NCBI RefSeq assembly: GCF_020405225.1
Contig: NZ_CP084472.1
Span: 2,170,001-2,234,000, forward strand
Source of the DNA: Natrinema sp. DC36
GTDB lineage: Archaea; Halobacteriota; Halobacteria; Halobacteriales; Natrialbaceae
Length of the DNA stretch: 64,000 nucleotides
Direction: 5' to 3'
Shown here: positions 6,910 to 18,500 of the stretch, one piece after another
How positions within the stretch are numbered: position 1 is the first letter of the stretch
Layout: each line of letters starts with the position of its first letter
The notes under the pieces: model-generated
What the model was told of the DNA's origin: nothing
Seen by the model: the letters and a program-made list of their open reading frames with translations, nothing else
The model's database searches: none
Program-made: the position numbers and the translations under genes

Positions 6910-8109
6910 CTAGTTCGTCGTGATGACTTCGATCACGTCCCGCGACTCGACCTCGTACTCTTTGCCCAACTGTCGGTTCGATCGGCAGTCGATCGCGTGC
7001 AGGAAGCCGTCGCCGATGTCGGAGTGGAGGCTGTAGGCGAAGTCCTCCGCGGTCGAGTTCGGGGGGATCAGATAGCAGTCGGGTAGCACCTCGCCGCGTT
7101 CGTTCCCCAGCCCGTTCGCGCCGCCGGGGAACACCGGCGTCACGCCGAGGACGTCGAACAGCGCCGTCTCGAGGGCCGCCTGAACGCCCGTCGCGCCGAA
7201 CTCCTCGAGGAAGTCGCGGATCTGCTCGAGGCCCTGTTTCTGGTCGTCGGAGACGTCACCCAGAATGTCGAAGTCCGCGTCGCCGGGTCGGTAGTCGATG
7301 ACGCCGGCCTGTTCGGCCGACTTCAGCGCCTTTTCGGCGTGGGCGCTGCAGGGGACGATCGTCAGGTGATCGTAGTCAGGATCGCCGGTGATCTCCTCGT
7401 AGTTCGCCTGCGCCTCGGGGGTGTCCATCTTGTTCGCCGCGATGACCATCGGCTTGGTCTCTTTCCGGATCTCGCGGGCCAACTCGAGTTGGTCGTCCGC
7501 GTCCCACTCCGCGGGGTCGAAGCCGACACCGACGCGCCGGATGAGCCGCTTGATCTCGTCTTCGCTGGTCTTGAACGCGCTCATCTGCTCGGCGAGTTCC
7601 TCCTCGATAGCGTCGTCCTCGGTGGTGTAGCCCGTCTCGTAGCGGTTGATCCCCTTCTCGAGGACGCCCAGATACCACTGGTCGAGTTCCTCTTCGAGGA
7701 AGGCGATATCCTCACGCGGATCGTGGCCCTCGGTGGCTTCGCCCTCGGCGTCCGTCTTGCCGGAGAAGTCGACGACGTGGACGAGCACGTCGGTCTCGTT
7801 GAGGTCGGAGAGGAACTGGTTGCCCAGGCCGTTGCCCTCGTGTGCGCCGGGGATCAGTCCGGCCACGTCGACGAGTTTCGTCGGGACGAACCGAGTCCCG
7901 TCGGTACAGTAGCCGACGCTTGGGGTGCACTCCTCGTCGAACTCCGGCGCTGCGCAGTCGACGCGGACGTAGGCCTCGCCCACGCTGGGATCGATGGTCG
8001 TGAACGGGTAGGCCCCCTCGGGCACGTCGTTCATCGTCGCCGCGTTGAAGAAAGAGGACTTGCCGACGGACGGTTTGCCGACCAGTCCGATCCGGTAACT
8101 CGTACTCAT
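6910..8109 (-). CDS. YchF-type (OBG family) GTP/ATP-binding protein
   Basis: A 399-aa translation-factor-class P-loop protein. Visible motifs are the Walker A loop G-L-V-G-K-P-S-V-G-K-S-S near residue 8, the G3 region DVAGLIPGAHEGNGLGNQFL, the NKMD-type specificity motif AANKMDTPEAQ, and a C-terminal TGS-like domain ending VESRDVIEVITTN. The family acts on ribosomes and the stress response; bacterial YchF prefers ATP, while archaeal members are usually called GTPases. The start MSTSYRIGLVGKPSVGK is standard. A decayed copy of its first 25 codons lies 170 nt upstream (8210-8354). Confidence 0.9.
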   Translation of the reverse strand: MSTSYRIGLVGKPSVGKSSFFNAATMNDVPEGAYPFTTIDPSVGEAYVRVDCAAPEFDEECTPSVGYCTDGTRFVPTKLVDVAGLIPGAHEGNGLGNQFLSDLNETDVLVHVVDFSGKTDAEGEATEGHDPREDIAFLEEELDQWYLGVLEKGINRYETGYTTEDDAIEEELAEQMSAFKTSEDEIKRLIRRVGVGFDPAEWDADDQLELAREIRKETKPMVIAANKMDTPEAQANYEEITGDPDYDHLTIVPCSAHAEKALKSAEQAGVIDYRPGDADFDILGDVSDDQKQGLEQIRDFLEEFGATGVQAALETALFDVLGVTPVFPGGANGLGNERGEVLPDCYLIPPNSTAEDFAYSLHSDIGDGFLHAIDCRSNRQLGKEYEVESRDVIEVITTN

Positions 8110-8209: not shown

Positions 8210-8354
8210 CCGTCGTTCATCGTCGCCGTCGCAGAATCGCTCTGCGATTCTACGGCCCGTCAAAGCGACGCTCTGACAATGGCGTTGAAGAAAGCGGACT
8301 TGTCGACGGAGGGGTTGCCGACCAGTCCGATCGGTGACTCGTACTCAGTATCCG
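8210..8354 (-). pseudogene. decayed duplicate of the ychF 5' end
   Basis: The segment 8282-8354 matches 8042-8115, the first codons and start region of the adjacent ychF gene, at about 67 of 74 positions with one deleted base. A second block, 8210-8227, matches 8023-8040 (17 of 18). In ychF the two blocks are contiguous. In the copy they are split by 54 extra bases holding two hairpins (8228-8281). Read in the ychF frame the insert keeps frame but brings a TGA stop. The copy is a local duplication that later decayed; it encodes nothing functional. Confidence 0.75.
8228..8281. repeat. 54-bp paired-hairpin insertion element
   Basis: This insert splits the ychF duplicate. It holds hairpin 1 (stem AGAATCGC, loop TCT, 8233-8251), a 7-nt spacer, and hairpin 2 (8259-8277, ends GTCA and TGAC, one mismatch in the stem, 3-nt loop). 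The comparison with intact ychF gives its exact limits. The same layout recurs inside dphB at 18189-18239. Confidence 0.65.
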
Positions 8355-8498
8355 GAGTGGGCGAGCAGCGCCGACACGGGTTTCCGTCCGACGACGGAAT
8401 GGTATGGGTATCCCTGGCACGGAAGCATCCAAATCGGCTCGGCTCTCGTGAGACATCAGTACGGACGAGTTAGTACGGACCGCCGGATCGGACTCGAT

Positions 8499-17675: not shown

Positions 17676-18500
17676 ATGCTCACCTTCATCGGCCTCGGTC
17701 TCTACGACGAGCGCTCGATCACCGTCGAGGGCCGGGACGCCCTGCGGGCGGCCGACCGCGTCTACGCCGAGTTCTACACCAGTCAGCTGATCGGGACGAC
17801 GATCGACGACCTCGAGTCCCACCACGACCTCGAGATCGAGGTCCGGGATCGCGCCGGCGTCGAACAGCATCCCGACGACATGCTCGCAGCGGCCGAGGGC
17901 GAAGACATCGCGTTCCTGACGGCGGGCGATACGATGATTTCGACGACCCACGTCGACCTCCGGCTGCGCGCTCACGACCGCGGAATCGAGACGCGGGTGA
18001 TCCACGGCGTCACCGCCCAAACGGCCACCAGCGCGCTGACCGGACTCCAGAACTACCGCTTCGGCAAGGCCACCACCCTTCCGTTTCCGTACGCCCACGG
18101 GGCCGAGGGACTCCCGGCGAGCGTCACGGAGACGATCGACGACAACCGTGCAGACCGGCTGCACACCGTCGTCTACCTCGATATCAAGGTTGGATACGAT
18201 CCAACCAGCAGTCAGAACTCTTCGAGTTCTGACGACAAAGCCGAACGCGGGGAGTACATGACCGCCGACGTCGGTGCCGAACTGCTCGCAGCGGAGTACC
18301 CCGACCTCGTAGGCGTCGTCGTCGCCCGCGCGGGCAGCCCCGACCCACTCGTCGAGGCCGGAACGATGACCGAACTGGCGGACCGCGAGTTCGGCGACCC
18401 GCTACACCTGCTCGTGATCCCCGGGGAGTGTCACCTGCTCGAGGCCGACGCGTTAGTCGAACTGGCCGGTGCGGATCGGGACGCCCTCGAGATCGCCTGA
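17676..18500 (+). CDS. dphB: diphthine synthase with a 17-residue inserted segment
   Basis: A 274-aa SAM-dependent methyltransferase that trimethylates the modified histidine of elongation factor 2 in diphthamide synthesis. The N-terminus MLTFIGLGLYDERSITVEG, the AFLTAGDTMISTTHVDLRL region and VIHGVTAQTATSALTGLQNY are standard, and the C-terminal VVVARAGSPDPLVEAG is intact. The conserved LDIK-AERGEYMTA junction is interrupted by 17 residues rich in Ser (codons 18189-18239), encoded by a double-hairpin insert that keeps the frame. The insert falls in a surface loop by homology, so the enzyme may remain active. Length is otherwise normal. Confidence 0.9.
   Translation: MLTFIGLGLYDERSITVEGRDALRAADRVYAEFYTSQLIGTTIDDLESHHDLEIEVRDRAGVEQHPDDMLAAAEGEDIAFLTAGDTMISTTHVDLRLRAHDRGIETRVIHGVTAQTATSALTGLQNYRFGKATTLPFPYAHGAEGLPASVTETIDDNRADRLHTVVYLDIKVGYDPTSSQNSSSSDDKAERGEYMTADVGAELLAAEYPDLVGVVVARAGSPDPLVEAGTMTELADREFGDPLHLLVIPGECHLLEADALVELAGADRDALEIA
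18189..18239. repeat. 51-bp paired-hairpin insertion inside dphB
   Basis: Two perfect hairpins with 3-nt loops lie in tandem: stem GGTTGGAT with loop ACG (18188-18206) and stem GTCAGAACTC with loop TTC (18211-18233), 4 nt apart. The 51-bp length keeps the reading frame and adds 17 codons. The architecture matches the 54-bp insert at 8228-8281, including GTCA/TGAC ends on the second hairpin. Confidence 0.65.

Follow-up and report, generated by a model that had tools for sequence, protein, structure and literature searches.

Why does a haloarchaeal genome carry, in the gap upstream of an intact ychF gene, a second and decayed ychF start that is split by two neighboring hairpins, and how did the interrupting DNA get there? 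The window, which is the whole stretch of 64,000 nucleotides that we analysed (C1:2170001-2234000 of a 5.1-Mb genome), holds both copies on the minus strand, together with the following features.

6910..8109, minus strand: intact ychF (ychF1), an ORF of 399 amino acids that serves as the empty-site reference.
8212..8350, minus strand: decayed 5' part of a second ychF copy, displaced on our best reading and split by the element; from alignment to intact ychF.
8228..8281, plus strand: palindrome-pair element of 54 bp, delimited by empty-site comparison; antisense to ychF, with a TGA in the ychF frame.
8230..8254, plus strand: hairpin A, in which 8230-8240 pairs with 8244-8254 (11 pairs, one mismatch, loop TCT).
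8259..8277, plus strand: hairpin B, in which 8259-8266 pairs with 8270-8277 (8 pairs, one mismatch, loop GAC, GTCA..TGAC ends).
8351..8480, no strand assigned: region upstream of the broken copy, resembling what precedes native ychF in close relatives free of the duplicate.

Alignment to intact ychF identified 8282-8350 as the start region and 8212-8227 as the codons after it, and showed that the decayed copy has lost its ATG, carries a 1-nt deletion and has an altered P-loop. Excision of the 54 bp at 8228-8281 leaves ...TTCTTCAACGCGGCGACGATGAACGAC, the junction found in intact ychF and at the empty site of relatives. The preliminary description had placed 54 bp with two hairpins between bases that stand side by side in intact ychF, and this was confirmed both here and by eight genomes of one genus in which the site is empty. 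Its treatment of the ychF copy as an in-frame insertion did not hold, as translation of the insert in the ychF frame gives FFNAIVRASL*RAVESQSDSATATMND. The multiple-of-three length of 54 bp does not keep ychF open because the opposite orientation of the element brings in a TGA, and the same insertion accompanies ychF decay in other genomes. The hairpin A and B patterns each occurred once in the window (0.00-0.02 expected from shuffles), and the insert folded as RNA better than shuffled sequences (z-scores −3.5 on the plus and −5.1 on the minus strand). Across 11 copies at the ychF site the hairpins were preserved by compensatory changes, though they are not read through in that orientation.

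The ychF site was found in several states. The exact 54-bp insert is present in G341 and G304 and a decayed insert in G657, with ychF additionally frameshifted in G304 and G657. In G341, ychF shows no damage other than the insert and is open for 374 codons past it, as might be expected if the insertion were recent or if read-through of some kind occurred. G249 retains only a 5' ychF remnant with the element. Intact ychF adjoins a remnant in the genome studied here, in several relatives, and in G348 and G211. A search of the own genome with ychF1 returned one full-length 100% match and a paralogue at C1:1492980 (46%); a ychF paralogue found elsewhere (44-46%) may, and probably does, buffer loss of the disrupted gene. 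The region upstream of the broken copy gave matches of 83% and 82% in G078 and G071 (L008, L009; query 172-371 covered), and its resemblance to the native ychF upstream of relatives suggests that the intact start was brought in, displacing the older one. Our preferred reading is that ychF was disrupted and then restored, the duplicate in the window being the displaced 5' end of the disrupted gene, adjacent to the restored gene; we infer this order of events from these comparisons.

The insert is not confined to ychF. A second insert with two hairpins, 51 bp long, had been noted in dphB, and its kinship with the ychF insert extends to architecture and to some sequence: in both, hairpin A is followed by a short linker, by hairpin B with GTCA..TGAC and by GAC. 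The dphB site of relatives is empty or holds inserts of other lengths, several of which are double hairpins with altered yet matching arms. We aligned units of many loci and built a covariance model from 32 sequences, with stems shortened to a common length because hairpin A resisted plain alignment. In the own genome, the model matched dphB, purA and the kae1-bud32 copy.

17676..18500, plus strand: dphB (diphthine synthase), an ORF whose closest PDB chain is 2dv4, diphthine synthase.
18186..18236, plus strand: 51-bp family member in dphB (VGYDPTSSQNSSSSDD), sense and in frame (model score 38.9 bits, E 3e-9 in the window).
C1:381531-381581: in-frame unit in purA of the same genome (L174).
C1:2594701-2594745: in-frame unit in the kae1-bud32 fusion gene of the same genome (L176).

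The model matched the ychF copy of the window at 8228-8280 with 20.2 bits, a score to be read with the inclusion of a shortened form of this copy among the 32 sequences. Compensatory changes across the family were strong, with a count that leans to structure owing to the shortened stems and to the selection of sequences with hairpins. The unit of the family measures about 45-61 bp and comprises hairpin A, a GCC-like linker of 4-5 nt, hairpin B (RTCAGA..TCTGAY) and then GAC, with loops mostly of 3 nt. GAC (GTC on the other strand) lies directly beside hairpin B in most copies, in searches that partly selected for it. A pattern search for hairpin B plus GAC in 125 family genomes gave well over a hundred matches and the reversed control few. 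A weak match (18.6 bits) at C4:114018 in the own genome (L178) marks a related double hairpin within a gene that looks like an IS6-type transposase.

Model matches (E ≤ 0.001, with E-values that are rough) occurred in 305 of 391 Halobacteria genomes, with named hosts including Halolamina salifodinae, Halobaculum gomorrense and Halorubrum sp. A sample of 295 genomes of the phylum, about 240 of them from other classes, gave a match in 39, all of them Halobacteria, with no match outside this class among the matches listed. Viral contigs searched with two exact patterns gave no match. The ychF insert is a member of this palindrome-pair family, which is restricted to Halobacteria as far as tested. 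A search for further copies, proposed when the two inserts were first described, led to purA and kae1 in the own genome, to most Halobacteria, and to near-identical units in the unrelated genes thpR, purK and acyl-CoA dehydrogenase, whose likeness is difficult to account for unless units are copied from site to site.

This distribution bears on whether the hairpins are instead a conserved regulatory RNA pair in the ychF leader. Their position upstream of ychF in several genera, the good RNA fold and the compensatory changes are consistent with a leader, whereas the junction pattern occurred in only 12 of the 391 genomes, three from one unrelated sequence type (L267), the family unit also lies inside coding genes, and an Rfam search with five loci gave no match up to E 1. 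We consider a leader RNA very improbable.

Coding sequence is where many of the units reside. Among 79 sites with distinct flanks, 40 lie within open sense ORFs and 31 have a clear coding signal on both sides, as called from codon-position GC. The frame was kept at all 31 (p = 1.6e-15 against 1/3, with sites in homologous genes of different genomes not being fully independent), 29 units were in sense orientation against 2, and 28 of the 29 sense units started at a codon boundary. An Asp precedes the unit at 25 of 37 sites, and the sense unit reads ..SSSAxQTQSDD.., a hydrophilic acidic linker. If translated, the dphB unit would give the VGYDPTSSQNSSSSDDK stretch of DphB and the purA unit the AAEQSSASNQNSPSSDDG stretch of PurA; the units in purA and purD are insertions of ~17 residues relative to solved homologues. 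Host genes also include argG, thpR, purK, trpA, kae1, acyl-CoA dehydrogenase, an NAD-kinase-like gene, ABC transporters, histidine kinases, tnpB and others, with most names read from translations and PDB matches backing dphB, purA, trpA, purD and one histidine kinase. The multiple-of-three length stressed in the preliminary description goes with a kept frame in these genes; the ychF copy has such a length too, but brings an in-frame TGA and lies in a pseudogene fragment. Insertions might be silent at the protein level if the element were skipped in translation or spliced from RNA, and the reading frame of G341 ychF, open well past the TGA, would fit. Skipping would not require the frame to be kept at every clear coding site, however, and ychF decays in G304 and G657, so that silent insertions appear highly unlikely.

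Some units lie at gene ends with the stop codon in the loop of hairpin A, as in an isocitrate dehydrogenase-like gene; in L163 (G072), two tandem units end such a gene, and its last codons and stop are repeated in each. At the N box of a histidine kinase (L250, L249; G156), up to five tandem units of 15 residues (AVEHGST...DD) have hairpins that are well paired but differ from unit to unit.

The sequence after the unit recurs at several sites as the left arm of hairpin A (for example AVEH in histidine kinases), giving the order target, loop, inverted target, hairpin B, target. Over the 79 sites, similarity between the first 12 nt of the unit and the 12 nt after it was 5.76 against 4.88 expected (z 6.1; reached in 0 of 5000 permutations). 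This target-duplication signal is significant overall and variable, being weak or absent at many sites, ychF among them. We rejected hairpin A as an invariable target copy, since the permutation test captures an average effect and ychF deviates from it. The likeness of the left part of the element to the following flank is also what local mutation would produce: immobile palindromes that template switching at quasi-palindromes generates and maintains in tolerant linkers. Arms that change together, the apparently inverted interior of hairpin B in the dphB inserts of two related genomes (L041 versus L042), and the perfect but different hairpins of the histidine kinase tandems point the same way. 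Local mutation does not account for a hairpin B with GAC that is common to unrelated genes throughout the class and absent from the other classes tested, nor for the near-identical units in thpR, purK and acyl-CoA dehydrogenase, and we regard it as improbable. Another account, in which a transposase-independent, class-wide element copies itself by template switching at its target and adds neutral acidic linkers to proteins, is a tentative possibility, less likely than not. Hairpin A would then be partly made from the target, with guidance from short homology in the flanks, for instance GAC|GTC or AACGCG|GCG.

The ychF and tnpB copies have arm sequence and the target AACGCG|GCG in common, which points to flank-guided transfer between tnpB and ychF; with the target common to both, we dropped coincidence as the explanation for the TnpB similarity of the ychF flank. 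The units could derive from IS605/IS1341-type elements, as their remnants or as satellites, with a Y1 (HUH) TnpA moving them: many copies are located inside tnpB or where an IS1341-like element has its right end, and both the palindromes and the haloarchaeal host fit. In Haloquadratum walsbyi, PATEs and SMRs are small transposase-free palindromic repeats, and some PATEs are 52 bp long (PMC3119063). Against such an origin, most coding copies are outside IS genes, the hairpin sequence is unlike the IS right end in L233-L237, and PF01797 is missing from G215, G338 and G048 (13-15 matches each) and present in several genomes without matches. We judge an IS605/IS1341 origin unlikely, and a Y1 transposase as the required mobiliser was rejected on the absence of PF01797 from these three high-copy genomes. 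Two recurrent arrangements were observed in this context: tnpB with an antisense unit directly after the DRDxNA motif of the nuclease domain (L067-L072, L104, L128, L131, L132, L210), and a unit beside a GGCGTTTACGCC hairpin resembling an IS1341-type right end (L133, L147-L149, L164, L211, L212).

Taken jointly, the data are probably explained by tiny palindrome-pair elements that spread as non-autonomous DNA and by a ychF disruption whose remnant lies beside a restored start. A sense, in-phase unit would encode a linker of 15-19 Ser/Gln/Thr/Asp-rich residues that proteins tolerate, and sense, in-phase copies would survive in genes as a result. At ychF, the element would have entered in the opposite orientation between AACGCG and GCGACGATG, and the in-frame TGA of the 54-bp version would have disabled the gene; some lineages keep a disrupted or decaying ychF, and elsewhere, here included, an intact 5' end adjoins the interrupted remnant. 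Flanking sequence most likely guides the copying, through DNA synthesis of a short-homology or template-switch kind. We identified no mobilising or source enzyme and observed no transposition event; the proposal of a mobile miniature element fits the family distribution, from which we infer movement.

Rickettsia is the best-known host of translated palindromic insertion elements. The Rickettsia palindromic elements are dispersed, palindromic, translated, inserted in frame in unrelated genes and without a transposase of their own (PMC10969869), and by behaviour as described they are the nearest analogue. In-frame insertion in unrelated genes is the feature in common, seen at the 31 clear coding sites and in purA and purD but not in the ychF copy. 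They differ in being ~150 bp long and in Rickettsia, an unrelated host, whereas the haloarchaeal units are two hairpins within 45-61 bp in Halobacteria. CGTC-tagged REPs are short hairpins with a GTC tag, often paired and without a dedicated transposase (PMC3733652), and the tagged hairpin recurs here in the GAC adjoining hairpin B. REPs of this kind are bacterial, lie for the most part outside genes and have CCA tails and 4-5-nt loops, in contrast to the largely intragenic haloarchaeal units with mostly 3-nt loops; neither the extragenic preference (half of the distinct sites being in open sense ORFs) nor the Y1 (RAYT) association of REPs (high-copy genomes without PF01797) extends to them. 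PATEs have IS605-type terminal palindromes and no target duplication, and in-frame gene insertion is not among their described features. MITEs are likewise small, non-autonomous and multicopy with inverted-repeat content, but no clear IS terminal inverted repeat or constant target duplication was found in the haloarchaeal units, whose duplication signal is significant on average and variable. We found no report of such archaeal in-frame palindromic insertions in the open-access literature.

The presence of the two-hairpin kind across most Halobacteria would amount to a parallel archaeal way for selfish DNA to introduce linkers into core enzymes, here those encoded by dphB, purA, purD, trpA, thpR and kae1. 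High copy number without a matching transposase in some genomes raises the question of how such small repeats move. The ychF series lets one follow what becomes of an insertion, since a single site is seen empty, hit, decayed and restored. In this series, the remnants of G348 and G211 (L259, L260) contain a second, different double hairpin (GCGAACC..GGTTCGC, GTCGGACC..GGTCCGAC).
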